NCBI RefSeq assembly: GCF_004087915.1
Contig: NZ_CP035108.1
Span: forward strand, 806,001-870,000
DNA: 64,000 nucleotides
DNA from: Geovibrio thiophilus
GTDB lineage: Bacteria; Chrysiogenota; Deferribacteres; Deferribacterales; Geovibrionaceae
Direction of reading: 5' to 3'
The notes under the pieces were generated by a model. That model worked only from the letters and a program-made list of their open reading frames with translations, was not told where the DNA came from and made no database searches. Position numbers and translations under genes: made by a program. Position 1 is the first letter of the stretch. Each line of letters opens with the position of its first letter. Shown in pieces: positions 6,496 through 25,968 of this stretch.

Positions 6496-6516
6496 CAGAT
6501 ATAAAGACGGGCTGTT

Positions 6517-9171: not shown

Positions 9172-9226
9172 GTTCGGGGAAATTATGAAGAGAGATATGT
9201 TATGAGGGATGAGCAGGAGGTCAAAC

Positions 9227-10531: not shown

Positions 10532-10540
10532 GGAGGCTTT

Positions 10541-11461
10541 ATGAGAAAAACCGCACTTGCGCTTGCCGCAGTTTTTATGAGCTTCGCCGCATTCGCCTTC
10601 CCTCTGAAAGAGATTAAAGAGGGAGACAGGGTGGATATGAAGAAATTTGCCTATTCTTCAAAAGCTTATACTGATAAAGAGGATAAGGCGCCATTGAAGG
10701 TTCTTCTCCTCTGGAAAGGGGATAAGAGGCTCAGCAAAAACACCTTTGAGGAGTTCAAGCAGTTCTGTGAAAAGAGCGATGTTGTGTGCGTTGCCGTGGA
10801 GCTGGGTGTTGATGAAACGCTGAAACCAGTGAAAAATGTTATATATGCTGCTGATACCGTTAAAATGACCGACTCATGGGGGATATTTACGCTTCCGGTG
10901 ACCCTTGTGCTGGACGGTGACAACAAAATTATCCATGGTCTCGGCTTTGAAGGGCAGTACAGGGCTAAGCTTGAGAAGTTCATTGAGCTGAAGCAGGGAA
11001 AGATCTCTGAGGCTGAGTACCAGAAGATTACCAATGTGCAGGGTGTTGACAAAACTGTCAGCAAACTGCCGGAAATAAACTTCGCTAAAAATATGATAAA
11101 GAGCGGGCAGACTGAGGATGCCCGCAAACGCCTTGCCGAGATTGACCCCGCAGCTCTGAGCGATACGGAGAAGACAAGACTGGCGGAGGCATATTTCATG
11201 CTTAAGGAATACGGCGGAGCTCTGGAGATTCTGAAAGGCATCAAGAGCACGGTTCCGGAGGTCAGGTTTCTTCTCGGCTATGCCTACATGCAGACAAAAA
11301 ACTATGAAGAGGCTTTAAGCGAGCTTGAATCAGTGAAGGATATTTACCCCCGCAAAGAGCGTGTCTACTACGCTCTGGCAAAAATATACTACGAAAAAGA
11401 TATGTACAAGGAAGCGGCGGATTACTTTAATCGCTGCTGTGAGATAGTGATCGATTTTTAA
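10541..11461 (+). CDS. Exported thioredoxin-fold/TPR protein (cytochrome partner 1)
   Basis: 306 residues with a signal peptide (MRKTALALAAVFMSFAAFA). Residues about 45-150 look like a thioredoxin/TlpA fold: 'LKVLLLWKG', 'WGIFTLPVTLVLDGDNKIIHGLGFEG' with the cis-Pro position. There is no CXXC, so it is not a disulfide enzyme. Residues about 180-306 are TPR helices ('YEEALSELESVKDIYPRKERVYYALAKIYYEKDMYKEAADYFNRC'). A paralogous protein sits behind the 28-heme cytochrome at 18165-19100, so the pair may help multiheme cytochrome maturation, docking or export. That role is inferred from position. Confidence 0.8.
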   Translation: MRKTALALAAVFMSFAAFAFPLKEIKEGDRVDMKKFAYSSKAYTDKEDKAPLKVLLLWKGDKRLSKNTFEEFKQFCEKSDVVCVAVELGVDETLKPVKNVIYAADTVKMTDSWGIFTLPVTLVLDGDNKIIHGLGFEGQYRAKLEKFIELKQGKISEAEYQKITNVQGVDKTVSKLPEINFAKNMIKSGQTEDARKRLAEIDPAALSDTEKTRLAEAYFMLKEYGGALEILKGIKSTVPEVRFLLGYAYMQTKNYEEALSELESVKDIYPRKERVYYALAKIYYEKDMYKEAADYFNRCCEIVIDF

Positions 11462-11476
11462 GAGACAGCCGCTTCT

Positions 11477-11570
11477 GCGCTCCCGAGGACGGGAGCGCGC
11501 CGTGCGTGCGAAGCCGCCTTGATGGCGGCGCGAGCGTGTGTAAAAATTTTCATGGATGACAAATTTTTAC
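11477..11570 (+). repeat. Modular hairpin repeat, copy B
   Basis: Hairpin 1: GCGCTCCC-GAGGAC-GGGAGCGC (11477-11498). Core with the GCCGTGCG...GCGAAG family sequence and inner hairpin GCCGCC-TTGAT-GGCGGC (11513-11529). Hairpin 3: GTAAAAATTTTC (11540-11551), loop ATGGAT, and the complementary arm to 11570 with a single bulged C. Confidence 0.78.
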
Positions 11571-11645
11571 TGTCAAATCAGAGCGGCGGATTACTTTAAT
11601 CGCTGCTGTGAGATAGTGATCGATTTTTAAGAGACAGCCGCTTCT

Positions 11646-11740
11646 GCGCTCCCGAGGACGGGAGCGCGCCGTGCGAGCGAAGCCGCCTTGATGGCGGCGC
11701 GAGCGTGTATTCAAAATTTCCATGGATGACAAATTTTTAC
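11646..11740 (+). repeat. Modular hairpin repeat, copy C
   Basis: The duplicate of copy B within the second tandem unit. Hairpin 1 is identical. Hairpin 3 keeps loop ATGGAT but its 5' arm has drifted (CAAAATTTCC) and pairing is less regular. Confidence 0.75.
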
Positions 11741-12084: not shown

Positions 12085-13098
12085 TCAGAAAAGGTTAGTC
12101 TTATCCCCGTAGCCTGCACCGTGGTAATGGCAGTTTGTGCAATTGGAGTCATAACCGCTAGGGTGAACGACTTCCTGAAGACCGTTGCCTGTTATTGCTC
12201 CGTCCGGACTCATATGGCAAAGGGCGCAGAGTTCCGTAAAGTTATTACCGGTCACGCTTACAGACGCATCAAGCGCATCAGCATCAGCATCCTCCGCGCT
12301 TTCACCGAAACGGGTGATGAGGTATGAGTTGTCTGATGTGTGCACCTCGTGGCACTGGGTGCAGCCTATCTCCATTGCGCTTGTATATGATGCACCGGGT
12401 CTGAACTGACCGAAGGTCTGTCCCAGACCGTCCTTAGCGCCGTGTATGTCCGCCGTGAGGGTCTGTCCTGCTATTCCTCTGAATGTGTCGAATATATTAG
12501 TGAAATCGCCGTCAAAAGCCAGTACGGGCGGTGTGATGCCGAAGGCTCCGTTTCCGTCATGGCATGTAAGACAGAAATCTGTGGCGGAAGTGTAAGTTTC
12601 CGTGCTCTGTCTGAAATCTCTGGCGAAGTTAACTGCGCCGTTCATGTCTGTGTACTGATGGCATATCACACAATCGGAGTTGCCGATTTTGCCGTCTCCG
12701 TCAAGGTCGTGCATTGTCGCATGACCGCCGAAAAGGGAGGCGGAAGCAACTACTGACGGGTCAGCGTGGCAGAGGGTGCACTGGTAGCTTTCGGCGGTTA
12801 CGCCTTTTATGCCGTTTGTTCCGTGGCAGTAGAGGCATGCGCCTATGTCGTCCGCATCAACTTTTTTGAAGCTGTCAGCAAGGGCAGGGTTGTATGAATG
12901 TATTTCATCAAGCTGATTTGACGGATGGCAGAGTGAGCAGTCCTCTCTTTCCCATCCGCTGTGGCTTTTGGAGTCTGTAAGCTGAGGTATGCCTATGGCG
13001 TTTTTCTGCGCTGATGAGTTGCTTGAGCTGTTGCTTCCGCAGGCAGCGGCAGATGCCAGAATCATTAATGAAACAATGCAGTAAATAAAAACTCTCAC
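12085..13098 (-). CDS. Octaheme c-type cytochrome lipoprotein
   Basis: About 337 residues with eight CXXCH sites (CSLCH, CLYCH, CTLCH, CVICH, CLTCH, CTQCH, CALCH, CTNCH). GTG at 13098 gives MRVFIYCIVSLMILASAAAC with a lipobox-like Cys and then Gly/Ser linker, and has GGGGTGA upstream; an ATG at 13134 is the alternative, two bases after the previous stop. Lipidation and a Ser/Asn-rich linker suggest an outer-membrane or surface protein. Last gene of the 11-gene operon, so it may be a terminal surface reductase of the conduit. Confidence 0.85.
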   Translation of the reverse strand: MRVFIYCIVSLMILASAAACGSNSSSNSSAQKNAIGIPQLTDSKSHSGWEREDCSLCHPSNQLDEIHSYNPALADSFKKVDADDIGACLYCHGTNGIKGVTAESYQCTLCHADPSVVASASLFGGHATMHDLDGDGKIGNSDCVICHQYTDMNGAVNFARDFRQSTETYTSATDFCLTCHDGNGAFGITPPVLAFDGDFTNIFDTFRGIAGQTLTADIHGAKDGLGQTFGQFRPGASYTSAMEIGCTQCHEVHTSDNSYLITRFGESAEDADADALDASVSVTGNNFTELCALCHMSPDGAITGNGLQEVVHPSGYDSNCTNCHYHGAGYGDKTNLF

Positions 13099-13136
13099 GG
13101 ATTCACCCCGTTTTGTTGCTATATGTTCTTTCATCG

Positions 13137-13706
13137 TCAGTTATTCCTGTGGCAGTCTATGCAGAAGGATGCCTTGTGGCAGCTGTCGCACGATGCCGGA
13201 TCCATCATTGCCTCTACAGAGTGAACAAGCCTGAACGCTCTTGGATGTCTGTATCCGTCTTTGGCGTACTGCTGACTGTGGCAGCTTTCGCAGTACCAGT
13301 CTGAGTGGCAGCTTTCGCAGCTCTTTTTATCCAGAGCAGCGGGCACGGCATGGAGCTTTGTCCACTGTGTGAGATGGTCTTCCGGCTTCATGGTCTTTAG
13401 GTTATCATGGCACACGTAGCAGTTCTGCGGGGCGGAGACGACCTTAGTTATCTCCTCCTTGTGGCAGGTGTGGCAGGTGTTGTCGATTTTCAGCTCGGCG
13501 CCGATTTTGAAGTCACTCCCTTTATTGATGAAGGTCTCAATATCGGGCAGCTTGTGGCAGTAGAAGCAGTCCTTTTTCTGTTCAAACAGAATGTTTACGT
13601 GCTGTTCGTGGTTGAACTTGACGTAAGGGGACTGGTAGTAAAACTTCGTACAGCCGAACAGAAGAACCGGCAGAACCAGTAAAAACCATGTTAATCGCTT
13701 ATTCAT
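13137..13706 (-). CDS. Heptaheme c-type cytochrome lipoprotein
   Basis: 189 residues: signal with lipobox LFGC (Cys19), then seven CXXCH sites (CFYCH, CHTCH, CYVCH, CESCH twice, CDSCH, CIDCH). Early 'KFNHEQHVNILFEQKKDCFYCHKL' resembles the class III (cytochrome c3/c7) pattern with a distal His ahead of the heme site. GAGGAAAATAGA precedes the ATG. It lies between the porin and the octaheme lipoprotein and is probably part of the outer-membrane conduit. Confidence 0.88.
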   Translation of the reverse strand: MNKRLTWFLLVLPVLLFGCTKFYYQSPYVKFNHEQHVNILFEQKKDCFYCHKLPDIETFINKGSDFKIGAELKIDNTCHTCHKEEITKVVSAPQNCYVCHDNLKTMKPEDHLTQWTKLHAVPAALDKKSCESCHSDWYCESCHSQQYAKDGYRHPRAFRLVHSVEAMMDPASCDSCHKASFCIDCHRNN

Positions 13707-13737
13707 CTATTTTCCTCGGTAAATTTTATATTCATTG

Positions 13738-15003
13738 TCAGAAGCTGTAAGTAGCTTTCACACCATACCTGTTTTCAGGCAGATAGCGGGTTTCCCTGTT
13801 GTTTTCGGCATATACGCTCACTGCCAGATCTTTTATCACATCATATTCAAGCTCGCCGTATATGGAGTATATGGATTCTTCTTTATCCATGCCGATTGTT
13901 CCGTTTTTGATTTCGGAACGTCCGATATATTCGGCTTCAAAGCTGAATCTCAGTTCTCTGAGTATGCTCCAGTCCAGCGAGAAGCTTACGCCGTTCGCTT
14001 CGGAATCGCTGCCGTCGTAGATGTACATTTCGATGTCGGATGTGAGTCCGTGGCTTTTGAAATGGTCTACACTGGCGCCGAATTTATATATGTCACCTGT
14101 TACCCATTCGCCGAAGTTATTCAGCAGGACAACATGGGTGGTTCCCTGATAAACCGTGTAGTGATCGTTTATTGCGTATTCGACGGTGTATGAATACCTA
14201 TCCTCTTTGCCGGATGAAAAGTTGGTTATAATGAGTTCGCCGAGCCTTTCAGAGCCGTCTTCAACTCTGATTCTCGTCGCGTCCGCAATAAGCCCCAGCT
14301 TTTTGTATCTGGCGTATACTCTTGCCATGCCTCTGTATACTTCGTCATCTTCCATGTCATAGTCTATTTTGCCGTCCAGAGAGAGGAAAACAGTTTTATC
14401 CCTTAGAGATACGAATCTTCTGCCCAGACCTAAGCCCATAAGCTCCTGTATAGTTCTGTCGCCGTCCTCCTCCTTGGAGTAGGAAACATAGCCGGTGTAG
14501 TTTTTTACACCGTTGAGGAACAGCCGTCCGCCGTAGAGCCTGTCGCCTGTATCCCTGAATGATTCATTGATGTGTCTGTCGTCCGAATCGAAGTACTCAG
14601 GCACGCCGCCGAAGGCGGTTACGCCGAAGTGCCAGTCGGTTCTTACGGTGGCTTCGGCACCGTCAAGGGTGAGAAATCTGTTTCCCATGAAGGAGAATCT
14701 GCCGAGCTTGATTTCAAGCGCTCTTTCAAAGCTGCTGAACTCAACATAGGCGGAGTAAATATCAGTGAAGCTCTCTCCGTCCTCCTCTGAGTAGGTTCCG
14801 TGGAAGTTGAACCCGAGATAAGGATTGATAAGTTTGACATTATCAAGTATCAGCGTGTTTTCCCATGTTCCTTCCGTGTCCCCCCCTTTTTCCTCGGAGC
14901 TTTCATAAGAAGTCGAGAAAGAGCCGTCGATGCTGAAGGAATAAGCGTTCTGCACCGAGCCCGCTAAAAGAACAAAAATTAAAAATCCCCTTAAAAGTTT
15001 CAC
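13738..15003 (-). CDS. Outer-membrane beta-barrel protein (conduit porin candidate)
   Basis: 421 residues: signal peptide to about residue 22, then alternating hydrophobic/polar strands rich in Tyr, Ser, Asp and Gly, and a terminal '...YGVKATYSF' with Phe last, the standard BamA signal of outer-membrane barrels. Motifs such as 'LEIKLGRFSF' and 'LRELRFSFEAEYIG' look like antiparallel strands. There are no heme sites. It lies between a 9-heme and a 7-heme lipoprotein, the arrangement of porin-cytochrome complexes (MtrCAB, Geobacter PCC), although no similarity to MtrB is evident by eye. Confidence 0.85.
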   Translation of the reverse strand: MKLLRGFLIFVLLAGSVQNAYSFSIDGSFSTSYESSEEKGGDTEGTWENTLILDNVKLINPYLGFNFHGTYSEEDGESFTDIYSAYVEFSSFERALEIKLGRFSFMGNRFLTLDGAEATVRTDWHFGVTAFGGVPEYFDSDDRHINESFRDTGDRLYGGRLFLNGVKNYTGYVSYSKEEDGDRTIQELMGLGLGRRFVSLRDKTVFLSLDGKIDYDMEDDEVYRGMARVYARYKKLGLIADATRIRVEDGSERLGELIITNFSSGKEDRYSYTVEYAINDHYTVYQGTTHVVLLNNFGEWVTGDIYKFGASVDHFKSHGLTSDIEMYIYDGSDSEANGVSFSLDWSILRELRFSFEAEYIGRSEIKNGTIGMDKEESIYSIYGELEYDVIKDLAVSVYAENNRETRYLPENRYGVKATYSF

Positions 15004-15018
15004 TCTGTTCTCCTGAAA

Positions 15019-17202
15019 TTAAAATGAAGTAAGGTCGTTTATCGAGAGCTCAAGCAGTCTCGCTGCGTAACGGTAGTTATGCAGACCGAAGCTTTTATCC
15101 GAAATTATAAAGTTATAGTTGTAGGCAGCGCGGTTCAGGGCGCTTGTCAGGGCGGTGTTGCCCGTCACGCTGTAGGAGGCGGATATTTCACTTTCCGCCG
15201 CTCTTCCCGCGAGGGTGTTTATTCTTGCCTTAAGAGTGTCCATAAGAGTTCGTACATCCGCCGTTTTTCCCAGATAGTCGTACCTGCCGTCTGCGTCAGC
15301 CGTGACTCCCGTGTGGCATGAATCATTGCAGTAAGCGAGCCTGTCGCTTCTGTTTTCGCTCATTGCCATGCTGTGGGTTGTGCCTGCGTCTCTGTTCATA
15401 TGGCAGTCGGCGCAGTCAAGCAGAGCCTTGTGAGCAGCGGTGAGGCTAATTGTTTCGCCATAAGTCCAGCCGCCCTTGCCTTCAAACATCTCTGCCTGAG
15501 AGTTGTGGGGAACAGCGCCGATTCCCGCTCCGTCTGTGTTGTGGCATGTGTAGCATATTTTGCCGTCTCCTGCGTCTACAGTGACATTACCGCTGTAAAG
15601 CGTGAGCGTGTGGCTTCCCGATACTCTGAGCTGAGCGTTATGTCCGCCTTCACCGTGGGGGTCATGGCAGACATTGCAGGTTATGCCGCTGATTCTGTCC
15701 GTATCGGCGCGGGTTATTTCCGTTCCGAATATCATTCCGAGGGCTCCCTCTCCGCTGTGGCATTTGAAGCAGGCTTCATTTGTCACTACAATAGAGTTCG
15801 AGACTGTATGGGAATTTTCGTGTGTGCTTTCGCCGCCTGAGTCATGGAACTCAGCGAAGTGACCGCCGCTTTTGCCTGTGTCGTGGCAGGTGAGGCACAC
15901 GCCGGATGAGATTGATATGGTTGAGGGATGCCCCGTGAAGCTTATTGTGCCGCTCAGACCGCCTGTGAAGGTTGCTGTGGGACCGTGGCAGGCTTCGCAG
16001 GTAACGCCCTTGAGATGCGCGGATGCGCTGGAGGCGTCCGTATTAACCGTCATTGTATCGTCAAAACCGTAAACAGCCGGATAATCGTCCGTCCCGTTGC
16101 TGTTTCTGTCGGCTAAGAAAAGTCCTGTGCCGTGGCAGGTGGCGCATTCAGTGCTGTTTGCGTTTGTTACCGCCGTGTTATAGGCTCCGGCGTGTCCGCT
16201 TGCGCTCCAAGCAGTCTGGAGGTTTCTCATTATCTCCCTGCCGTACATATCTTTATGATCGGGAGCGGTGACGGAGCCGCTGTGGCAGAAAAGAAGGCAG
16301 TATGTTCTGTTGTTGTTTTTATCGTATGAATAGCCGAACACCTTGATTGTAAGGCTTTCTGAGGCTGTCTTGGTGCTTCCCGTAACAGTGGCGCTGACTG
16401 TGTAGTTTCCGAATGTGTCTGGAATGAACACTGCTTGGTTTCCGGAAACTAACGGAGTAAAAGAAGAACCGTCGGCTCTTTTTACTGTCCACTGAACATT
16501 CAGCACCGGTTCGCCGAACGCTGCCGTGTCAATATCGAGAGAGGTCTTCTCGCCGGGCTGCACATGCTCTGTTCCTCTTATCACGTCGGGAATCTGGATA
16601 TTTGACGGATCAGTGAAGTATTCGCTGTCCGCAAAGGCTTCTCTGTAGCTTTTGGACAGTAGCTTTATGAATTTCTTTGTCGCAGGAGTTTCAGCTTCGT
16701 TGAGGTACCCCGCGAAGAAGCTGAAAGGTATGTCAGTCGCGGAGCGGATAATCCCCGCTGCCGGTTTTGATGATGACTGAATGACTGCGCTGTTGTTTAT
16801 TATTGCGAGGAAAACAGTATTGGCGTCCGTTGCCGTGCCTGAAAGGGTGTAGGGTATTGTTATAACCGCGTCATATACAGCGGAAGGAGCCGAAGAGGAG
16901 GCTGCATCGGTAAATCTCACCGAAAAAACGGGAGAAAGAGCTGTGTAGCCGTCTTTGACATAGGCGGAGTCGGTTTTTTCTATGTATACAGTGGTTCCGG
17001 CGAGGGTCGGAATGCTCGCAGTGAGCGAAAAGCCTTCAAAGCTGCCTGTTCCTGTGTAGCTGAGTGTTCCGTCGGATGCGATCTTTGCGGTTGTAATGGT
17101 TCGTGTGTCGTCATCAACGGAAGGCTTGATACTGTCGCTCCCGCCGCATCCTCCGATCCATGCTATGCTTAATATAATCAATAAGACTCTAATAAATTTC
17201 AT
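15019..17202 (-). CDS. Large surface multiheme lipoprotein, 9 predicted hemes
   Basis: 727 residues. Lipobox GGC (Cys19) then Gly/Ser/Asp. The N-terminal third (to about 310) is beta-rich with an Ig/PKD-like segment ('NVQWTVKRADGSSFTPLVSGN...GNYTVSATVTGSTK'). The rest carries seven CXXCH (CATCH, CEACH, CLTCH, CFKCH, CNVCH, CYTCH, CADCH) and two CX3CH (CLLFCH, CNDSCH) sites. A helical tail ends the protein. Lipidation, Ig-like domains and position next to the porin suggest the extracellular terminal cytochrome. GAGGATAATAT precedes the ATG. Confidence 0.88.
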   Translation of the reverse strand: MKFIRVLLIILSIAWIGGCGGSDSIKPSVDDDTRTITTAKIASDGTLSYTGTGSFEGFSLTASIPTLAGTTVYIEKTDSAYVKDGYTALSPVFSVRFTDAASSSAPSAVYDAVITIPYTLSGTATDANTVFLAIINNSAVIQSSSKPAAGIIRSATDIPFSFFAGYLNEAETPATKKFIKLLSKSYREAFADSEYFTDPSNIQIPDVIRGTEHVQPGEKTSLDIDTAAFGEPVLNVQWTVKRADGSSFTPLVSGNQAVFIPDTFGNYTVSATVTGSTKTASESLTIKVFGYSYDKNNNRTYCLLFCHSGSVTAPDHKDMYGREIMRNLQTAWSASGHAGAYNTAVTNANSTECATCHGTGLFLADRNSNGTDDYPAVYGFDDTMTVNTDASSASAHLKGVTCEACHGPTATFTGGLSGTISFTGHPSTISISSGVCLTCHDTGKSGGHFAEFHDSGGESTHENSHTVSNSIVVTNEACFKCHSGEGALGMIFGTEITRADTDRISGITCNVCHDPHGEGGHNAQLRVSGSHTLTLYSGNVTVDAGDGKICYTCHNTDGAGIGAVPHNSQAEMFEGKGGWTYGETISLTAAHKALLDCADCHMNRDAGTTHSMAMSENRSDRLAYCNDSCHTGVTADADGRYDYLGKTADVRTLMDTLKARINTLAGRAAESEISASYSVTGNTALTSALNRAAYNYNFIISDKSFGLHNYRYAARLLELSINDLTSF

Positions 17203-17221
17203 ATATTATCCTCTTCAATAT

Positions 17222-18214
17222 TCACTTTGCTTCTGCGTTATGCTTATCTGTAAGAACTTTAAGGAGCTCTGCGGTATTTTGCTCATCATGACATTTCGCG
17301 CAAAGCTGATCCTTGGTCACATTATCTGCGCTGAGCAGCAGGGGGTCGCTTGAGTAGTGCGGAGTATGGCAGTCAGAGCAGTCCAGCGTTTTATTGAATT
17401 TTTCCATGTATACCTTGTCAACGGGGTGGAACTTGATGTAGCTTTTCTGATGGTAGTTGAAGCCGAGTTCGCTGGAAGCGTGACATCCGTCGCAGAGCTC
17501 GTTAACAGGCTTTCTCAGATGAGTTTTATCCGTGGATTTGTGCGGCGAGTGGCATATGGTGCAGAAACCCGCTGCAACCGGACCGTGAACGTACTGGGAG
17601 GATTTCATCTGTATGCTGAAATTATTGTGGCACTTGAGGCATGTTTCCGAAAAAGGCTCCTGCGGGATAAGGTTGTTGTCTTTTTCATGGCACTCAAAGC
17701 ACTTAGCCTGTTTTACCGGAGCATGTACCCACGTGCCCATGAATTTATCCCTGTGGCAGTTCACACAGTCGTTGAGATCCTGAAACCTGTGACAGGCGAG
17801 GCATATTTCCCTCCTGTCGCTGCTGTGGAAATTCATATAGCCTTCTGTCCAGTCACTGATGGTGGTGGGAGAATCAACTTTGTTCACCTGTACGGTGTTA
17901 ACATCCTTGCCCTGAGTGACGATTATAGTATTCTCTCCTGCGTTGAGCTTGAGAATTGTCATGAGCATGTAGAAGTTCTCACCGTTTGCGTCCTTTGACT
18001 CAATGAGCTTCTTAACGCTCTTCACCCCGTTGATTTCTATGGTAACAGGGTCTTTTGCAGACGACTTTCCTATTATGTGTATGTCACTGACGGACTTCAC
18101 TTTATTAGTGATCGGGAAAATTATTTCCAACTTAGCGAAAGCCTGCGGGGTGAGCAGGAAAACGCTACTCAGAACCAATATTATAATTTTCCGGCAACCG
18201 AATCTCTTCAGCAT
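17222..18214 (-). CDS. Octaheme cytochrome with N-terminal beta domain
   Basis: About 330 residues from the ATG at 18214, which has AAGGGGA upstream; a longer start at 18238 is possible. It overlaps the previous gene by about 50 bases. Signal peptide 'KIIILVLSSVFLLTPQAFA', then a beta-sandwich-like region (about 30-125, 'HIIGKSSAKDPVTIEINGV') and eight CXXCH sites (CLACH, CVNCH, CFECH, CLKCH, CTICH, CDGCH, CSDCH, CAKCH). 'HAPV', 'HGPV' and 'FHPV' segments supply likely distal His ligands, as in the 15-heme protein on the other strand. No lipobox, so probably periplasmic. Confidence 0.87.
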   Translation of the reverse strand: MLKRFGCRKIIILVLSSVFLLTPQAFAKLEIIFPITNKVKSVSDIHIIGKSSAKDPVTIEINGVKSVKKLIESKDANGENFYMLMTILKLNAGENTIIVTQGKDVNTVQVNKVDSPTTISDWTEGYMNFHSSDRREICLACHRFQDLNDCVNCHRDKFMGTWVHAPVKQAKCFECHEKDNNLIPQEPFSETCLKCHNNFSIQMKSSQYVHGPVAAGFCTICHSPHKSTDKTHLRKPVNELCDGCHASSELGFNYHQKSYIKFHPVDKVYMEKFNKTLDCSDCHTPHYSSDPLLLSADNVTKDQLCAKCHDEQNTAELLKVLTDKHNAEAK

Positions 18215-19100
18215 GTGCACTGTCCCCTTGTGATTCATATATTTTCTTCAGGTAATAATTGATTTTGTTTTTATCCCCGTAGCTGTCCTTAATACCGTTG
18301 AGGATTTGCAGAGCGTTGTCGCTGTCGCCCTTCAGGTACGCGGCAATTCCGCTGTAGAGAACGCATTCCGTGCTGTCCGTACAGGCTGAGAAGGCGGCGT
18401 ATGCCCTGTCTGCGGCTTTGAGCCTCAGATAGGTCTGCCCGAGGAGAAGTTTTCCCTTATCATCAAGTTCCGCCGCATTAACCTTGTCCATCTCGTGCAC
18501 TGCCGCCTCAAGCTCGCCTTTTTTGGCAAGCATGAGAACCAGATTCATCCGGGGAACAATTTTTTTATAATTTTCGGACTTTTCGGCGGCGTCAATCATT
18601 TCAGCAAGCCGTGCTTCATCGGTTTTGCCCGCAAGATAGGATAGATAAACAGGTGTGAGCGCGGCGAAGCTGCCGTCCTTGCCGATCATTCCGGCTGCTT
18701 TGTCCTCTTTTATAAAAAGCATATAGGGCGCATCCTCAGCGGGAGCGGCTTTGTAGATACAGGCTTTGCTGTCTGACTTGCCGAAGAATGAGTAAAGCGT
18801 TTTTTTCTCTGCGCCGGAAGCATCCGCACAGAAGCACTTTACTCCTTCAAAGTTATTACAGTCTTTAAGAAATTCAGCGAGAATATTAAGATCGAATCTC
18901 TTTGTGTGATCAAAGAACAGCACGGCTTTTCCGCCGTGCGGATTCTTTATTTCCGAAACGGACGAAAAAACCGGTTCAGCGTCGGAAGCCGCCTTGAGCG
19001 CACTTCCGGTATCCGCCGCATGGGCGCCCGCGGCGGAAAAAACCGCCGCTGAAAGCGCCGCCGCACAAAGTGTATTTCTCATACTCGAAAATGAAAGCAT
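18165..19100 (-). CDS. Exported thioredoxin-fold/TPR protein (cytochrome partner 2)
   Basis: 311 residues with a signal peptide ending 'AGAHAA'. Residues about 55-150 are thioredoxin-like ('GKAVLFFDHTKRFDLNILAEFLKDC') without a CXXC active site; residues 185-300 are TPR helices. It is a diverged paralogue of the protein at 10541-11461 and, like it, directly follows a very large cytochrome: its ATG comes immediately after the 28-heme stop codon. A shared accessory function for multiheme cytochromes is inferred. Confidence 0.78.
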   Translation of the reverse strand: MLSFSSMRNTLCAAALSAAVFSAAGAHAADTGSALKAASDAEPVFSSVSEIKNPHGGKAVLFFDHTKRFDLNILAEFLKDCNNFEGVKCFCADASGAEKKTLYSFFGKSDSKACIYKAAPAEDAPYMLFIKEDKAAGMIGKDGSFAALTPVYLSYLAGKTDEARLAEMIDAAEKSENYKKIVPRMNLVLMLAKKGELEAAVHEMDKVNAAELDDKGKLLLGQTYLRLKAADRAYAAFSACTDSTECVLYSGIAAYLKGDSDNALQILNGIKDSYGDKNKINYYLKKIYESQGDSAHAEEIRLPENYNIGSE

Positions 19101-22100
19101 TTAATTACCCTGAAGTTTTTGCAGGTTCTGCTGTATTATAAACAGGTTCCTGAGCACTTCGGATTCGCCTATCTGTTTGTTTCTGCCTTGTCTGTAAGCC
19201 TTGTCATGAAATTTGGAGAAAAGTTCTTCCGTAAGATCACCGTGGCATACCGAGCAGAATTTCTCTTTTACTTCAAGCTTCAGGAAACTGTCTTTATCAG
19301 TTCCTTCCACATTGTAGGCTGCCTCCGTGCTTCCCTTTTTCCAAACGTGCGGATCGTGGCATGTCTGGCAGGTTATAGAACCTTCCGCAGATACCTTTCC
19401 GCCGTCATCGTACAGGAAAGCTTTATACTGCTCTCTGTACGGGAATATTTTAAATATTCTGTCATGGGCGGTGACTTCCGGAATTTTTTTGTAGCCGTAG
19501 CCGTCCTTCTTGTGGCAGTCGCCGCACATTTCAAACGCGAACACCGACTTTCTGCCCTGCTCAAAAGCCCACATAAGCTTGTTGTCTTTGTGGAAGTTGT
19601 GAGGCATATGGCAGACGTAGCATGCGTTTGTCTCAGCCGTCTGTCTGACCTTATCGGTCATATAGTCCAGCTTCGCAAGGTTATGCTCCGAGTACACTAC
19701 GTTTTTCTGATCCGCATGGCAGGCAAGGCACATATTGCTTTCGCCTGTGTCTCTCACCATGCCTTTAACGGCGCCGTGCACATCGTGGCATGTTGAGCAT
19801 ACTATTTTTCCGTCAAGAAGGTAAATATCAATTTCTTTTTTTAGTTTAACATTTGTCGGGTGGCTTGTGGTAATTTTTGTTTTTTCCGCCGCTTTTCCGT
19901 CACTGTGGCAGCTTTTGCAGATCGTTTCAAAGTCTGTTCCCAGAGCCTTGTCGAAGAGGAAATATCCGCTGTTGTGCACCATGTGGCACGCGCCGCAGGA
20001 GTTTCCTTCATTTTTCGCCTTCTCAAACTCCGTTACTTGCTTCTCAAAGTTCGCGACGTTATGTTTTGACTTGGCGAAGTCTTTTTTATCGCCGTGGCAG
20101 CTCTGGCAGAAATTGCCCTCCTTCATCAGCTCCTTATTAAGGAAGCTGTTGCTGAAGGTGCCTTCTTCGCCTTTTTTAGGTCCGTTCTGGTGAACGGTGT
20201 GGCAGCCGGAGCAGTACAGGAAGTATTCGCCGTCTTTTTCGGTGAGGAACTTGCCGTATTTTTCATGGGCTTCAATTTTGCCGAGCTTGTGTCCGTCATG
20301 TACTGTTTTTTTGGAGGCGGAACCTTTTTCGCTATGGCAGACGAAGCAGTAGTCGTCCTTGGTTTTGTATGCGTACTCGATGGTCATGATGTTCTCATCC
20401 GTTTTAGCGTTGTGAACACTGTGGCACTGTCCGCACACGGGAGCTTCCGCCTTATCCTTCTCTCTTATATCGTGGTCTGTTCCGATTATCTCTTTCTTTC
20501 CTTCGTGGCATGCTGAGCAGAAATCATCGAAATCCGCAAAGTCGCCCCGCAGGAAGTCTTTGTCTATTTTGCCCTTTTTAGAGGGTTTATGCGGGTCATG
20601 GCAGCTTGTGCAGGTGAAGGTTTCGTCGGTAAGCTTGAAACGTTCGTCCACCTTGCCCTTAGTTTTGATATTGACCGGGTGGGAGTGTGCGCCCGTAACC
20701 TTCTTCTCCGCGCTTCCGCCGGGTTTATGGCAGTCCGCGCAGCCGTCTTCCTCTTTCTTAATCAGGAGGCGTTTATTGGTGCTGTTGTGAATCTTATGGC
20801 AGTCAAAACAGCCGTTTTTAAGCTTCTCTTTGCCGTGCAGGGTGTTCTCCACCATTTTCTTTTCATCATGGCAGACAATGCAGAGAGCGCCGTTAGCAGC
20901 CTCAACTCTGAGGAAGTTTTTGTCCTTGGAGTGCACATCGTGGCATGTGGCGCAGGTGACCATTTTCTGTTTGGATTTATCGCCGCCTATTTCAGTGAAG
21001 AACTGTTTGACCTCGCCGAAGAGGGGGAGCTTTTCATAGGCTTTCATATCCGTTTTTATGTCCTTGCCCACAGGGTGGTTAAACATTGCGGTGGATATGA
21101 CCTTTTCCTTGGCGAATCCTTTTTCCTTGTGGCAGCTTAAGCATCCTTTGGTGATCATGTCGTCATTAGTGTTGGGCAGAGCCAGCGACCATCCGTGGGG
21201 ATCATGGCAGCTTTCGCATGTGCCTTTTTCGTGTGCCGTCTTGCCGTCTTTGGTGACGAAGCCTTTCGTTGTTTTCATGTCATGCTTGGAATCAACTACA
21301 GTCTTCTGTTTTTCATGGCAGACGAAGCAGAGCGAGCTGTCGGCGTTGCCGCGCAGCAGAAGAGTTTCGGTTTTTGCCTTATGCACTGAGTGGCATGTGA
21401 GGCATATCACCTCGTTGCCTGCTCCGTATGAGCCGCCTTCGACTTTGATTTTGTTTATTTCCGTTGTATTGTCGTGTTTTATGTTAATCGGGTGGTTCAG
21501 CATGCCCTTGAGGTAGTTGTGGTCCTTGTCGCTTACCTTGTCAAGGTGGCATGTCGCGCAGAGTTCCGAATGGTTTCTGTAGTTAATAAGGAGCTTTTCC
21601 TCTTTTGGTGAGTGGGGTGTGTGGCAGCTCTGGCAGATAACCTCGCCTTTGGCGCCGAGCTTTCCGTCCAGCCTGTGTATCCTTGAGGCTACTTCATCCC
21701 TGTTTTCCTTAACCGGACTCATGGGGTGGGTGATGCCCATCTTTGCGGTGCCAACATCCTTGTGACAGGCTCTGCAAAGCTCTGAGTTTGCATTGTCCAT
21801 CCTCAGGAATACGCTTTTTTCAACCCCTTCATCCCTCGGCGCGCCGGTTGAGTGAGCTGAGTGACATGTGCGGCAGTCAATTTTGCCGTCCGTAAGGGGA
21901 AGAGCCGCGGGAATGGACATGTGCGCGGGGATCTTATCAAGCTTGTGTACATCACCCGTCCATATCTTAATGCGGCTGTCGCCTACCGTACCGTTATGGC
22001 AGGAGAAGCACATTCTTTCAGTGGCAACGACTTTATCCTTCTGAAATTCAACCAGCGGAGTTCCTTTGAGATCAAAGAGAAATTCAGGCATCCATTCATA

Positions 22101-22211
22101 GTGACAGATGGAGCATTCCTTTGAGGAATCGGGGTTCAGTTTTTCCGTTTGAGCCTCTGCGCTGAAAAAGCAAAATATCAGGGCTGTGAGTAAAAAAAAC
22201 AGACTTCTCAA
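19101..22211 (-). CDS. Giant 28-heme c-type cytochrome
   Basis: 1036 residues beginning at a TTG codon with GGAG five bases upstream, overlapping the NHL gene stop by four bases. Signal peptide 'SLFFLLTALIFCFFSAEA'. I count 28 CXXCH sites, spread evenly, one per about 36 residues, many followed by 'DPH', 'SVH', 'DVH', 'MVH' or 'TPH'. The regular 'FxxCHxxH' units look like an expanded array of a small diheme module, so the protein may form a long heme wire through the periplasm. Lys/Asp-rich linkers make it very polar; no membrane anchor is visible. Confidence 0.93.
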   Translation of the reverse strand: MRSLFFLLTALIFCFFSAEAQTEKLNPDSSKECSICHYEWMPEFLFDLKGTPLVEFQKDKVVATERMCFSCHNGTVGDSRIKIWTGDVHKLDKIPAHMSIPAALPLTDGKIDCRTCHSAHSTGAPRDEGVEKSVFLRMDNANSELCRACHKDVGTAKMGITHPMSPVKENRDEVASRIHRLDGKLGAKGEVICQSCHTPHSPKEEKLLINYRNHSELCATCHLDKVSDKDHNYLKGMLNHPINIKHDNTTEINKIKVEGGSYGAGNEVICLTCHSVHKAKTETLLLRGNADSSLCFVCHEKQKTVVDSKHDMKTTKGFVTKDGKTAHEKGTCESCHDPHGWSLALPNTNDDMITKGCLSCHKEKGFAKEKVISTAMFNHPVGKDIKTDMKAYEKLPLFGEVKQFFTEIGGDKSKQKMVTCATCHDVHSKDKNFLRVEAANGALCIVCHDEKKMVENTLHGKEKLKNGCFDCHKIHNSTNKRLLIKKEEDGCADCHKPGGSAEKKVTGAHSHPVNIKTKGKVDERFKLTDETFTCTSCHDPHKPSKKGKIDKDFLRGDFADFDDFCSACHEGKKEIIGTDHDIREKDKAEAPVCGQCHSVHNAKTDENIMTIEYAYKTKDDYCFVCHSEKGSASKKTVHDGHKLGKIEAHEKYGKFLTEKDGEYFLYCSGCHTVHQNGPKKGEEGTFSNSFLNKELMKEGNFCQSCHGDKKDFAKSKHNVANFEKQVTEFEKAKNEGNSCGACHMVHNSGYFLFDKALGTDFETICKSCHSDGKAAEKTKITTSHPTNVKLKKEIDIYLLDGKIVCSTCHDVHGAVKGMVRDTGESNMCLACHADQKNVVYSEHNLAKLDYMTDKVRQTAETNACYVCHMPHNFHKDNKLMWAFEQGRKSVFAFEMCGDCHKKDGYGYKKIPEVTAHDRIFKIFPYREQYKAFLYDDGGKVSAEGSITCQTCHDPHVWKKGSTEAAYNVEGTDKDSFLKLEVKEKFCSVCHGDLTEELFSKFHDKAYRQGRNKQIGESEVLRNLFIIQQNLQKLQGN

Positions 22212-23077
22212 TTTTTCTCCTTCAACTGAAAAATGAATACTGTTTTCTCGAAGGCATCCACCACGGCAAGCGTGTTTCCGTTAATCCTTATATGGGTTAC
22301 GGAGCCGAATCTGAGCTTTTTGCCGCTTGCGTCGGTGAGAACACCCGCAAATTTTCCGTCTTTATCGAAATACTGTATGAGACCCGTATATCCGTCGGCT
22401 ACGAACAGATTAACGCCCTTGTGGAGCGCTATGCCTGTGGGGCGGTAGAACTGACCCTGATTTATTCCCCATCCGCCGATAAATTCGTAAAATTTCAGTT
22501 CCTTTGTAATTTTCTGTATTCTTGTATTCAGGACTTCCGAGACCAGAAGCTGACCGGACTGATTAAATGCCACTGCGTAGGGATACCAGAACTGAAGACG
22601 CTCCTTGCCGTATCTGCCTGCGCTTGCCGCTTCCTTTGCCTCCGCAAGGTCTATTTTTACTATTCTGTGGTTGTCATTATCCGCCACATAAGCGTAACCG
22701 CTGCTGACAACGACATCCGTCGGGTCGAAAACGGCGAGTTTCGCCGAGGAATAGACCTCAAACTTTGAGGAGATCATGTCCAGAGAGTGTCCCTTGCTGT
22801 TGCAGAAAAGATAGTAGTTGCCGTTCCTGACGAAACAGTTGCCGCCTTTGAGAAATTCTTTTTTCACGGAAGATACGGCACTGCCGTTTTTGTAAACAGT
22901 GTAGCTCCCGTTAAAAGCATCGTATACTCCGGCTGTGTCTGATGATTCTATGACAACGTCAGCCGGAGTGGTCTGTTTTCCGGATGTGACTTTATACAGA
23001 AGGGACGCGCTGAACTCCAGCGCGTGCCCCTGTGTTATTGCCGAAAATATTATTACTGCCGCAAGTAAGATTTTCAC
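22208..23077 (-). CDS. Exported NHL-repeat beta-propeller protein
   Basis: 289 residues, GTG start directly after the stop of the previous gene. Signal peptide 'KILLAAVIIFSAITQGHA'. NHL-type blades are visible: 'PTDVVVSSGYAYVADNDNHRIVKID', 'PYAVAFNQSGQLLVSEVLNTRIQKI', 'PTGIALHKGVNLFVADGYTGLIQYFDKDGKF', 'FGSVTHIRINGNTLAVVDAFEKTVFIF'. Propellers of this kind are scaffolds; here one is transcribed between the inner-membrane quinol module and the 28-heme cytochrome and overlaps the latter, so it may hold these parts together. No heme or catalytic residues are seen. Confidence 0.88.
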   Translation of the reverse strand: MKILLAAVIIFSAITQGHALEFSASLLYKVTSGKQTTPADVVIESSDTAGVYDAFNGSYTVYKNGSAVSSVKKEFLKGGNCFVRNGNYYLFCNSKGHSLDMISSKFEVYSSAKLAVFDPTDVVVSSGYAYVADNDNHRIVKIDLAEAKEAASAGRYGKERLQFWYPYAVAFNQSGQLLVSEVLNTRIQKITKELKFYEFIGGWGINQGQFYRPTGIALHKGVNLFVADGYTGLIQYFDKDGKFAGVLTDASGKKLRFGSVTHIRINGNTLAVVDAFEKTVFIFQLKEKN

Positions 23078-23923
23078 TTAGTTTTCCTCACTGGGTTTCA
23101 GGAAGTTAGGTATGTAAAATTCCTTGTACCTGTCGATCATTCCCGCAACTTCGTTTCCGACTATCTGCGCCATCCTTCTGTCGGTGTAGCCTATTTCCTT
23201 AAGCGGAAGATAAGAGTCGTTGACATTGGGGTTGTGGCATTCGTTGCATTTGACTGAATCCTCAAGCGTGCTCATGGGTCTGTGAATTACTTTGAGCGAA
23301 GCGCTTTTCGCAGCGGGAACCATTTCTCCGACTTTGCTTTTGAACTCGCCGACATATTTGATCATAGGCTTGGTGTCGAACACTCTGGGCTCTTCACCGC
23401 CTCTGTTGAGGGGCATGAGCTTGTAGGGGGTGTCTTTGAGGAAGAAGCCTGTGTCAATGCTGGATTTTTCGTCTCCGGTGACCTTGTCGTACCAAACGTA
23501 TTTATGGTCGCCCGGGGTTTCGCTTTTTATATGGCAGGTTTCGCATGCCATAAAGTAAGCGTGCATATTAAGGAAGGCTCGGATCTCCTTTTTCTTGTCA
23601 TGGGGTACGTCCCCGTGGCAGGAAACACAGAGGTTGCGGCTGTCAGTAACAGCTTTCGCCTCAGTTTTGTGGAAATCATACAGCTTGTGGATCTGGCTTA
23701 TATCCTTGTACGCGAGCCCTGCGTTCTTGGCGTCCACGCCTTCAAGCATTTCCTGATAGAGCCTGTCCTCTTTGCTGAGGCTGTCCGCGTGGGCTTCGCC
23801 GTGCGGGGCGTGGTGCCATATGTGCATAACGAGTATGAACACTATGTAAGTGGAGTATACAAGGAACGCTATGCCTGCAAGGCAGTATAAATATCTTACA
23901 AAAGCGGGTCTCTGCTTACTCAT
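23078..23923 (-). CDS. Membrane-anchored triheme cytochrome c
   Basis: 281 residues. One N-terminal membrane helix ('YLYCLAGIAFLVYSTYIVFILVMHIWH') acts as an anchor; the periplasmic part has CVSCH, CETCH and CNECH. It overlaps the cytochrome b gene by eight bases. With that gene and the C-terminally anchored multiheme protein it forms a likely quinol:cytochrome c oxidoreductase module, comparable in parts to the Cbc complexes of Geobacter. Assignment to a particular Cbc type is not possible by eye. Confidence 0.87.
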   Translation of the reverse strand: MSKQRPAFVRYLYCLAGIAFLVYSTYIVFILVMHIWHHAPHGEAHADSLSKEDRLYQEMLEGVDAKNAGLAYKDISQIHKLYDFHKTEAKAVTDSRNLCVSCHGDVPHDKKKEIRAFLNMHAYFMACETCHIKSETPGDHKYVWYDKVTGDEKSSIDTGFFLKDTPYKLMPLNRGGEEPRVFDTKPMIKYVGEFKSKVGEMVPAAKSASLKVIHRPMSTLEDSVKCNECHNPNVNDSYLPLKEIGYTDRRMAQIVGNEVAGMIDRYKEFYIPNFLKPSEEN

Positions 23924-24833
23924 GGTGAGAACCTCCCCTGTTGTATTTGCCGCCGGTGGTGCTTTCCTTCATAAACTCGATCTGTTCTCTTATGAGCTCA
24001 ACTTTTTCCTGATTGGTAAGCATTTCGGCTTCTTTCTCCTTGTCAAGGTCAAGAAGGCGTGAAGGATCTTTCTCAACTATGCGGTTTATCCTCGCCCACT
24101 CCATGTAGTACTCATGCTTCATGAGGTGCTCCGGCAGATAGCCTGTCAGGAAGAGGGGAGACATGGGGAATTTGTCGTAGTTTACGTGGGCGTTGTACAT
24201 GTGCCAGATGAATATAACGCTGACGGCGAGCATAGCCTCGTCAGAGTGGGCAATGTAGCTTATGTTTACAGCCCAGCCGGGTATGAATGTTGTCGCCCAC
24301 ACGGGAAACCACAGGAAAAGACCCGTGAGCCCGAGAACGGGAATACCCCAGAAAACCGCCCAGTAATCGAACTTTTCTCTCCAGTGGAATCTCTCATGCT
24401 TGGGCATGTCGTCGCTTATGAAGAGGGCGTATTTTATGAACGCCGCTATATCCTGCGCGTCCTTCTTGCGGGGGCACATGGGTGAGTAATAGACGAAGCG
24501 TCCGAACTCGCCCCATGAGAAGGTTCCGGTCTTCTTCGCCGGTATTATGTAGTTGAGAGCCATGTTCTTAAACAGATAGTACCAGTGGTAGAAGAACTGA
24601 CCCACCATGATTACGCCGCATACCCTGTGGATGAACCTTGTGACATGCAGACCGCCGAACAGCTCTATCATGGGTTTCGCCCAAGGATAGAAATGGAACT
24701 TCAGCGGAAAGCCCGTAGCCACGAGGAGAATGAACGTAACCATGATAAACAGGTGCTGAACCCTCTGGTTCTGAGTGAGTTTCAGGTAGTGTCTTTCGCC
24801 GTTTTTTATTTTAACTAATGGTAATCCTTTCAT
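23916..24833 (-). CDS. Cytochrome b-type membrane subunit (quinol oxidation)
   Basis: 305 residues from ATG 24833 (GGGGGTG upstream; an in-frame GTG at 24842 is the alternative). Four or more hydrophobic helices carry paired histidines ('QHLFIMVTFILLVATGFPL', 'GGLHVTRFIHRVCGVIMVGQFFYHWYYLF', 'AHSDEAMLAVSVIFIWHMYNAH') typical of the diheme b561/FdnI/Ni-hydrogenase cytochrome b fold. A charged C-terminal tail is cytoplasmic. It would oxidise menaquinol and pass electrons to the flanking multiheme subunits. Confidence 0.87.
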   Translation of the reverse strand: MKGLPLVKIKNGERHYLKLTQNQRVQHLFIMVTFILLVATGFPLKFHFYPWAKPMIELFGGLHVTRFIHRVCGVIMVGQFFYHWYYLFKNMALNYIIPAKKTGTFSWGEFGRFVYYSPMCPRKKDAQDIAAFIKYALFISDDMPKHERFHWREKFDYWAVFWGIPVLGLTGLFLWFPVWATTFIPGWAVNISYIAHSDEAMLAVSVIFIWHMYNAHVNYDKFPMSPLFLTGYLPEHLMKHEYYMEWARINRIVEKDPSRLLDLDKEKEAEMLTNQEKVELIREQIEFMKESTTGGKYNRGGSHHE

Positions 24834-24850
24834 TTCTGTCACCCCCGCTC

Positions 24851-25903
24851 TTAACCGTTTCTCTTACGTCTGAAGCTCAGTTTCGGGAACATTATCCTGA
24901 TGAGCTCAAGAATCATAAGACCCTGCAGCATGAAAAACACTCCGAGGGTGAGTACGGTGAACGCAAGAGCAACCCAGAACTCGATAGGGTAGAGGTCTTT
25001 GTCGATTACAACGTGCATTCTGATCAGCCCGAACTCCCTTGTTGTGTTGGCGTGGCATCCCTCGCCTTCGCAGGATTTGTACCTGTTCTCAACATAAGTG
25101 GCGCTGTCGGGGCTCTTGTGGCTGAGGATCTTGTGAACGGACTGTCCGTCTCTCACGTGGCAGTCGATACATGTCGGCGCGTTTTCCATGCCGAACTCGA
25201 CAGCCTTGCCGTGGAAGGTGTCAAGGTAAGTGCTTGCCGCGTTTTTCAGCTTGTGCTTTTCCGCCATGTCGTCCCTTGAGTGACACTTGCTGCATGTTTT
25301 AACAACATCCTCGCTGGCGGAGAGATTCTTGATCCTGTGGGTAACGTGGTTGAAGTAGTGTTTGTAGGAAGGATCCTGATCGTGGCAGACGCTGCATTTC
25401 TGGAAGATTTTGTCCTGACTTCTGGCATCGTGCACGCTTCTTACGTCATCGGTGATGAAACGGTAAGTCGGGTTGCTGTGACAGTCTGTACAGGTTGGGA
25501 AATCCTCTGCTATGCGGGCGTTCACATGTTCGTTATCGACATTGTGAATACTGCCTTTGAGCTCTTCCACAATTTTGCTGTGGGAGAAGGGCTTTGCCGA
25601 ATCGCCCATTGTTATGTGGCATTCGGCGGCGCAGTCAACGATTTTGGCTTCCTTATGGGGTATCTCCTTGATGTCTGTGTGACAACCCGAACACTTGACC
25701 TTAGTGTGAACGGAATGGGTATACCTGTCGGAATCCACGTAGAACTGCCTTAAATATCCTTCATCGCTGACCCTGCTGAGTCCCGGATACTTGTGACACA
25801 TCATGCAGTTTTCATCGTCCGGAACTATGGACGCAGCATGTGCGGAAAGCGTACCGAGCAGAATGCCGGCAGCCATGATGGTAAATAAGAAAAATATTCT
25901 CAT
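24851..25903 (-). CDS. Multiheme cytochrome with C-terminal membrane anchor, 8 predicted hemes
   Basis: About 350 residues; ATG at 25903 has GGAG seven bases upstream. Signal peptide to 'SAHA/AS'. Six CXXCH (CMMCH, CSGCH, CTDCH, CSVCH, CSKCH, CIDCH), one CX3CH (CAAECH) and one CX4CH (CEGEGCH). A single C-terminal helix ('FWVALAFTVLTLGVFFMLQGLMILELI') followed by a basic tail fixes it in the inner membrane. First gene of the 11-gene operon; it receives electrons from the cytochrome b next door. Layout resembles membrane-bound NrfB/octaheme-type quinol modules. Confidence 0.88.
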   Translation of the reverse strand: MRIFFLFTIMAAGILLGTLSAHAASIVPDDENCMMCHKYPGLSRVSDEGYLRQFYVDSDRYTHSVHTKVKCSGCHTDIKEIPHKEAKIVDCAAECHITMGDSAKPFSHSKIVEELKGSIHNVDNEHVNARIAEDFPTCTDCHSNPTYRFITDDVRSVHDARSQDKIFQKCSVCHDQDPSYKHYFNHVTHRIKNLSASEDVVKTCSKCHSRDDMAEKHKLKNAASTYLDTFHGKAVEFGMENAPTCIDCHVRDGQSVHKILSHKSPDSATYVENRYKSCEGEGCHANTTREFGLIRMHVVIDKDLYPIEFWVALAFTVLTLGVFFMLQGLMILELIRIMFPKLSFRRKRNG

Positions 25904-25968
25904 CATCCACTCCAGTTTTTTAAATAAAAGAAATTAAAACAGAAGGTTATATTTCCTAGTTTCCACCT

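Follow-up and report, generated by a model that had tools for sequence, protein, structure and literature searches.

Eleven consecutive genes, designated here A to K, in a 64,000-nucleotide stretch of the Geovibrio thiophilus genome (NZ_CP035108.1, positions 806,001 to 870,000; this whole stretch, called the window below, is part of a single 2,997,552-base contig) probably encode a full porin-cytochrome (Pcc) conduit for respiration, which would lead electrons from quinol at the inner membrane to the cell surface. We put the probability of this reading at about 80%; it draws on gene content, conserved gene order, invariant haem ligands, a predicted outer-membrane barrel and homology to published pcc clusters. 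How Deferribacterota respire extracellularly has been called unresolved in print (PMC6896113), and A-K would be a named candidate of eleven genes for this process, with a single-copy core (E, B and the close form of I occur once each in the genome). The parts have been catalogued before in relatives; here they are joined into one pathway. It would unite two literatures, that of the pcc clusters of 2014 and that of the 19-gene cytochrome cluster of Deferribacter, as a single system in which the inner core is constant and the exit can be exchanged. Two questions thereby become open to direct test, namely whether diffusible periplasmic carriers are replaced by a giant 28-haem cytochrome, and whether sulfur or iron is the acceptor.

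Genes of the predicted conduit

All eleven open reading frames (ORFs) are co-directional on the minus strand, running from 25906 to 12085 in the ORF list of the window. The intergenic distances (negative values denote overlaps) are 8 nt for A-B, -8 for B-C, 0 for C-D, -4 for D-E, 0 for E-F, -74 for F-G, 19 for G-H, 15 for H-I, 31 for I-J and 2 for J-K, i.e. from -74 to +31 nt, in agreement with an earlier sequence-only reading that had described an abutting or overlapping operon of eleven genes at this place. The localizations given below for the products of A-K are predictions from signal sequences.

The putative inner-membrane quinol module comprises A (24851..25906), an 8-haem cytochrome c with one predicted C-terminal transmembrane helix; B (23916..24842), a cytochrome b561/formate-dehydrogenase-gamma type quinol oxidase subunit (PF01292, E 6.6e-11, above the cut-off), presumably di-haem, to judge from its family; and C (23078..23923), a tri-haem cytochrome with a predicted N-terminal transmembrane helix. 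It is followed by D (22208..23077), an NHL beta-propeller with a signal peptide (PF01436, E 1.1e-11, above the cut-off) that may serve as a scaffold, and by E (19101..22211), a predicted periplasmic cytochrome of 1036 aa with 28 CX2CH motifs that could act as a long wire. F (18165..19100) resembles tetratricopeptide repeat (TPR) proteins (PF13174, E 0.0043, below the cut-off) and might function in assembly, and G (17222..18238) is an 8-haem paired-CXXCH cytochrome (PF09699, E 1.3e-23). The remaining genes encode the candidate exit: H (15019..17202), a 9-haem predicted surface lipoprotein with the lipobox IGGC; I (13738..15003), a predicted outer-membrane beta-barrel with 22 strands and no plug of its own in an AlphaFold2 model; J (13137..13706), a lipoprotein of 189 aa with 7 haems and a lipobox, which we suggest may thread through barrel I or plug it; and K (12085..13134), an 8-haem lipoprotein cytochrome with a likely lipobox.

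Altogether, A-K contain 71 c-haem motifs (A 8, C 3, E 28, G 8, H 9, J 7, K 8), and the motif count found none in B, D, F and I; the haem numbers proposed earlier for E, G, H, J and K were thus borne out. Most motifs are of the CX2CH type, with exceptions in A (six CX2CH, one CX3CH and one CX4CH) and H (seven CX2CH and two CX3CH). When each protein was shuffled 500 times, the 28 CX2CH motifs of E compared with a mean of 0.18 (maximum 2) and the 7 of J with a mean of 0.08 (maximum 2), and no shuffled protein exceeded 3. An immunoglobulin (Ig) part that had been claimed for H was not recovered, as no Pfam domain was found in this protein at E <= 0.1.

We analyzed the haem ligands in alignments of orthologues (11 sequences for A, 12 for B, 12 for C, 11 for E, 9 for G, 8 for H, 10 for J and 8 for K). 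The histidine of every haem motif is invariant in A, C, E, G, H, J and K. Other invariant histidines number 7 in J (for 7 haems), 27 in E (28 haems), 9 in A (8), 4 in C (3), 9 in H (9), 7 in G (8) and 7 in K (8), and B has 8 in total. We infer that these spare histidines are distal haem ligands, serving all 7 haems in J and at least 27 of the 28 in E, which would leave no open catalytic haem in J and would fit bis-His wires rather than catalytic sites. The lipobox residues are likewise invariant, namely Gly18-Cys19 in J (10 sequences), Cys19 in H (8) and Cys32-Gly33 in K (8). The number of haems in K varies between lineages and may be 6, 8, 9 or 14.

Conservation of the gene order in Deferribacterales

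A homologue search in 59 genomes, that of G. thiophilus included, matched I in 14 (E <= 1e-3), B in 26, D in 23 (E <= 1e-3) and E in 18 (E <= 1e-50). Loci were fetched from 19 relatives, eight of which (G001-G007 and G010) possess the full A-K order, with A of G010 cut by a contig end; the grouping is therefore not due to chance, and the synteny check envisaged in the sequence-only reading had a positive outcome. Incomplete versions are found in G011 (E-K in the stretch read, B and D unmatched), G016 (A-E followed by I-J-K), G028 (A-C and I-J-K on two contigs), G026 (A-C) and G027 (C-E). A different arrangement, A-E followed by two additional genes (gA and gB, described below) and G, is shared by G017, G018, G020, G024 and G025, and by G030 except for G, which is missing at a contig end. 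The sample includes Deferribacterales metagenome-assembled genomes (MAGs; G001, G006, G007, G010, G011, G016 and G028), among them Seleniivibrio woodruffii and a Denitrovibrio; G005 we take to be Denitrovibrio acetiphilus.

In G004, G005 and G006 a 10-haem protein is encoded directly upstream of A, and the one from G005 matches TIGR03507 below the cut-off. Its size is similar to that of a decahaem cytochrome of the OmcA/MtrC family in G. thiophilus itself (TIGR03507, 224 bits, above the cut-off), which lies about 40 kb before the window (G000:C1:763125-765512, L118:6125-8512).

For Deferribacter desulfuricans it has been proposed in print that such genes are the decaying remnant of a metal-reduction system (PMC6896113, PMC13186404). 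Isolated stop codons in three relatives (in I of G028, D of G007 and E of G020) would agree with decay, but all frames are open in the window and in seven of the eight other full copies, and the alignments show no loss of a haem motif in any of the seven c-type cytochromes (A, C, E, G, H, J and K). We rejected the remnant explanation on these grounds and regard it as extremely unlikely.

Relationship to published porin-cytochrome clusters

A scan with a narrow pattern had returned seven J loci, all from Deferribacterales; the idea that J is confined to this order was dropped when a J profile (seven rows, including the copy from G056), run on 99 genomes around G056, matched 41 of them at E <= 1e-6. 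In Desulfurobacterium thermolithotrophum (G097) the genes are arranged as I-J-7haem-A-B-C-D-E. BLAST E-values to this cluster are 2e-29 for J, 1e-33 for A, 3e-42 for B, 8e-10 for C, 2e-13 for D and 3e-80 for E, and hhalign gives E-values of 9e-10 (Deferribacterales profile) and 9e-11 (a wider profile) for the barrel, and of 2.5e-91 for the E protein. The same order is present in G159 (presumably a Thermovibrio), G182 and G152, while G169 is devoid of I and retains J only as a stub. The E proteins of G097 and G152 have 28 haems, those of G159, G169 and G182 have 24; at 1e-20 E matches 20 of 121 genomes of the phylum of G097, 19 of which belong to the same family.

The A protein of G097 has six CX2CH, one CX3CH and one CX5CH motifs and is 79% identical to A of G159. 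Shi et al. 2014 (PMC4245776) report the same identity, 79%, for Dester_0351 and Theam_0871 of the pcc clusters, with six motifs of the typical form and two that are atypical. I-J is therefore a published kind of porin-cytochrome pair. The account gives 24 histidines for Dester_0351/Theam_0871 as against 22 in the G097 frame, which another start codon may explain. It also places the porins and cytochromes of Denitrovibrio acetiphilus, Desulfurobacterium and Thermovibrio in one group III; the Denitrovibrio cluster would be the A-K cluster, given that "only one cluster" is mentioned and that G005 has a single full-length J. To judge by these homologies, the conduit is not a new type. The statement that the parts match no PCC type was thus not supported, full-length relatives of I-J being found in D. 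thermolithotrophum and Thermovibrio in clusters listed as pcc, and the candidate "new type of conduit" was rejected in view of the same relatives. What stands of the earlier proposal of a distinct extracellular electron transfer system is a probable conduit that combines a quinol module in the inner membrane, a multihaem section in the periplasm and an exit through the outer membrane. Similarly, the genes in the window do follow the physical order of the supposed electron path, but this is not general, as Desulfurobacterium has I-J before A-E.

Group III clusters share with A-K the presence of a porin, a periplasmic multihaem cytochrome and an inner-membrane 8-motif cytochrome in one cluster, and I, J and A are homologous to these. 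The window differs in having I-J after A-E, and in the additional genes H, F, G and K. Genes for a cytochrome b, an NHL protein or a 28-haem protein are not mentioned in the running text on group III that was consulted (PMC4245776).

Ten further loci from other lineages, with a J-like gene after a barrel-sized gene, were read (G056, G058, G059, G061, G066, G069, G072, G092, G124 and G127). The barrel-sized neighbor has a BLAST match to I or to the G056 copy in G056, G059, G061, G066, G069, G072 and G092, and none in G058, G124 and G127. A long frame fusing many haems to a B-like cytochrome b is located nearby in G056, G059, G061, G072 and G092 and, in pieces, in G127; none was seen in the stretches of G058, G066, G069 and G124. 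A 9-haem H-like gene occurs in the stretches of G061 (hhalign E 2.3e-27), G066, G072 and G092, so that related H-I-J trios stand beside such long frames in G061, G072 and G092. G056 (L132:6032-14033) and G059 (L165:9390-17941) contain a compact relative of the conduit, which consists of a 17-18-haem gene, a 19-haem/cytochrome b fusion, a barrel, a 9-haem J-like gene, a 5-haem and a 4-haem gene; its J-like protein has no lipobox.

The genome of G. thiophilus also contains, outside the window, five pairs of a barrel and a 154-aa 6-haem cytochrome (on G000:C1, L177:5791-7736, L177:11439-13354, L178:4671-6622, L178:17918-19833 and L179:5714-7690), which are 95-99% identical in DNA sequence over 1.6-2.3 kb. 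In the one pair tested, the barrel is related to I (hhalign 2.4e-7) and the cytochrome to the C-terminal half of J (2.2e-16). Each pair lies upstream of a different molybdoenzyme of the DmsA/YnfE family (below the family cut-off) and a 4Fe-4S subunit. They give the impression that a single small conduit has been duplicated ahead of five different surface molybdoenzymes, and gene conversion may keep the pairs alike.

Comparison with other conduits

The resemblance to MtrCAB of Shewanella consists in a haem protein in a barrel and a surface cytochrome; I has 22 predicted strands, in contrast to 26 in MtrB (PMC12133095). PF11854 (MtrB/PioB) has no match in the whole genome, with the reservation that the control matched only 1 of 14 genomes, below the cut-off. 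MtrCAB membership was rejected on this result, as the sequence-only reading had held. B-K score below the cut-offs of both TIGR03508 (MtrA/DmsE) and TIGR03507 (OmcA/MtrC), and A has no NCBIfam match at 0.01. MtrB is not among the rows of the Foldseek and VIA-align lists for I, which are no test of absence. The OmbB-OmaB-OmcB and Ext conduits of Geobacter are alike in architecture, being described as a barrel, a multihaem partner and a redox lipoprotein (PMC6148476). ExtI was rejected as the closest barrel, no rhodanese domain being found in A-K at E <= 0.1. The CbcL-type inner-membrane quinol cytochromes may find a parallel in the B-like domain fused to many haems in the distant relatives with I-J, whereas the window encodes the b and c parts separately, in three genes. 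Between E and the OmcS chain there is a weak match (E 8e-4).

Two predicted outer-membrane exits

Deferribacter desulfuricans (G025) and similar genomes retain A-E, gA, gB and G. G is followed by an NHL lipoprotein, kinase- or regulator-like genes (assigned by eye) and 4-, 5- and 4-haem cytochromes, and then by a 794-aa barrel-like protein, a peptidyl-prolyl isomerase (PPIase), a further NHL protein and a cytochrome with 11 haems. These neighbors of the exit (L097/L120 of G025, L093/L121 of G017) may resemble the OmcS/Oet cassettes of Geobacter and of syntrophic sulfate reducers. The region corresponds to the 19-gene cytochrome cluster described in print as DEFDS_0741-0760 and FHQ18_02900-02990 (PMC6896113, PMC13186404), and traced to Takaki et al. 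2010. The orthologues of A-E, gA, gB and G occur there in one order and E has 28 haems as in the window, but I and J are lacking, and the 794-aa exit gene is in turn absent from the genome of G. thiophilus.

In the window, the gA-gB pair is encoded on the plus strand, opposite to A-K. gA (9209..10531) is a 15-haem paired-CXXCH cytochrome (13 CX2CH, one CX3CH and one CX4CH), 55-61% identical to the Deferribacter-type copies, and gB (10541..11461) is a TPR protein and a paralogue of F (24% identity over 241 aa, E 2e-10). Their order is kept in five Deferribacter-type clusters and in G030, which is cut by a contig end. The gene set should take in this pair (9209-11461), since it is placed between E and G in the Deferribacter-type clusters. 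A 139-nt direct repeat (96%) at 11413-11720 duplicates the 3' end of gB together with the adjoining DNA, and part of it is present a third time at 11920.

The 794-aa protein is present in 6 of 25 genomes and full-length J in 14 of 22. G159 has both I and J; G026, which falls outside the J count, has the 794-aa protein and no match to I. None of the genomes compared (25 for the 794-aa protein) has both exits, and neither was found in four of the 25, namely G008, G009, G027 and G030, the last two being fragmentary. The two barrels show no relationship in hhalign (I versus the 794-aa protein, E 0.47); the 794-aa protein has no family match and looks like a barrel when its sequence is inspected by eye. 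From these sequence comparisons we conclude that two unrelated predicted outer-membrane exits, I-J and the candidate 794-aa barrel, serve as alternatives for the core A-E and are exchanged between families. The relative age of the exits is not resolved by trees of A, B and E, as B requires one change (support 62/41) and A and E two. Descriptions of one joined system, of two alternative exits or of the invariant second histidines of J and E were not found in the published text searched, which did not extend to figures, supplements and Takaki et al. 2010, and the literature search returned no paper on the combination of a 28-haem cytochrome with an NHL protein.

The barrel I and its proposed partner J

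An AlphaFold2 model of I built with 7 sequences has 22 strands over residues 24-420 (mean pLDDT 72.4, pTM 0.61). The structure prediction suggested for the barrel thus gave a model of moderate quality; J yielded a poor one (mean pLDDT 55.3). In VIA-align 2 the best match of the I model is Fiu, a TonB-dependent receptor (Z 20.2, rmsd 4.8 over 348 aligned residues), followed by substrate-specific porins of the OprD/Occ type (Z 17-18, ~300 residues), and in Foldseek FimD ushers rank first (E 5.7e-11, TM ~0.5). The lumen of a TonB-dependent receptor holds a plug of ~150 residues, and the part of J behind the signal sequence has a similar length, ~170 residues; our working hypothesis is that it fills or docks into I. 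A profile search of the PDB gave nothing real for I and a best E-value of 0.0016 for J, and tblastn of J against plasmids gave no match. Of the components of a Pcc, the barrel gene in the cluster is represented by I with its 22-strand model and the adjacent multihaem cytochrome by J, a putative periplasmic partner with 7 haems, 7 spare invariant histidines and a lipobox. H (9 haem motifs) and K (8) have an invariant N-terminal cysteine and are predicted to be sorted to the outer membrane.

The similarity of the I model to OprD/Occ porins would also be expected if I were an oxyanion-selective, ExtI-like porin that imports selenite, tellurite or a sulfur oxyanion, with J, K and H as periplasmic reductases or storage cytochromes and no electron crossing at the outer membrane. 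Barrel I is present in Seleniivibrio MAGs, and deletion of extI in Geobacter is reported to affect selenite reduction. We nevertheless consider this unlikely: J appears to have no free haem site, H and K have lipoboxes, the operon lacks a rhodanese domain at the threshold given above, and I and J are adjacent in all Deferribacterales and Desulfurobacterium-type loci read, except G169, which has neither in full.

Several observations weigh against a complete Pcc-type conduit. Two members of the same family, G008 and G009 (completeness 99% and 92%), match none of B, D, E and I, and a partial J-like match is all that G009 has. None of the six Deferribacter-type relatives possesses J, though the core is kept. 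The model of I is of moderate quality and its best structural matches are transporters, not a conduit, and the model of J leaves its position inside I without structural support. In the Pcc model the periplasmic cytochrome is soluble, whereas J has a lipobox. Finally, D. desulfuricans keeps the core, while in the published accounts consulted Fe(III) reduction is not demonstrated for this species.

Proposed pathway and acceptor

In the pathway that we propose, menaquinol would be oxidized at the inner membrane by B, through its b-haems, together with the c-haems of A and C. Electrons would pass along the 28-haem E, for which the propeller D would be the support and G, perhaps also gA, the neighbors, then to J, filling or docking into the 22-strand barrel I, and would leave through the lipoproteins H and K, presumably exposed at the cell surface.

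A bolder version has E as a single-molecule bridge across the periplasm, i.e. one 28-haem protein on an NHL propeller that links the inner-membrane module directly with the outer membrane and acts as a universal plug for unrelated exits; we offer it as a tentative and rather doubtful idea. If it were true, no diffusing small cytochrome would be needed. At the pitch of OmcS, 28 haems would span ~220 Å, near the width of the periplasm. At the pitch of MtrA, whose 10 haems form a rod of 104 Å (PMC4245776), the figure is ~290 Å.

The acceptor would be insoluble or extracellular: elemental sulfur or polysulfide, Fe(III), or an electrode. A Geovibrio isolate, ADMFC3, produced current in pure culture at +0.4 V with acetate, with a rise centered at +0.5 V (PMC11356707); its genome has 125 cytochrome c genes, and other routes for this current are therefore possible. 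We consider sulfur about as likely an acceptor as Fe(III). The more specific explanation, in which the same conduit serves extracellular elemental sulfur or polysulfide and the reduction of Fe(III) or electrodes is a side ability, falls slightly short of an even chance in our estimate. D. thermolithotrophum is described as using sulfur, thiosulfate, sulfite or polysulfide, not nitrate, yet it has I-J and A-E, and 19 of the 20 genomes of its phylum with E are from its own family. S(0) has been proposed as the acceptor for the pcc of Desulfurobacterium and Thermovibrio (Shi 2014, PMC4245776), the authors of the report on strain HR11, which is described as lacking named sulfur reductases, suggest c-cytochromes for polysulfide, and D. 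desulfuricans, which respires S(0), keeps the core. On the other hand, Denitrovibrio, described as a nitrate reducer, has the full operon, and one Deferribacter species is reported to reduce Fe(III) but not S(0).

Multihaem chains are reversible, and D. thermolithotrophum is described as an autotroph, both of which could suit an inward conduit, with Fe(0), Fe(II) or a partner cell supplying electrons for the reduction of menaquinone. We regard this direction as very unlikely, as the current of the Geovibrio isolate was anodic (PMC11356707) and no pcc cluster was found in a known Fe(II) oxidizer, according to the text of Shi 2014 (PMC4245776). An outward conduit from menaquinol remains our preferred reading of A-K.

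Other features of the window

A scan for regulatory signals gave numbers close to chance, with 12 promoter-like sequences (14.5 expected) and 26 terminator-like sequences (18.1 expected). At 6043-7581, a 150-aa protein ending in HGGCC is followed by a protein that resembles radical-SAM enzymes by eye; together they perhaps form a small peptide-modification system.

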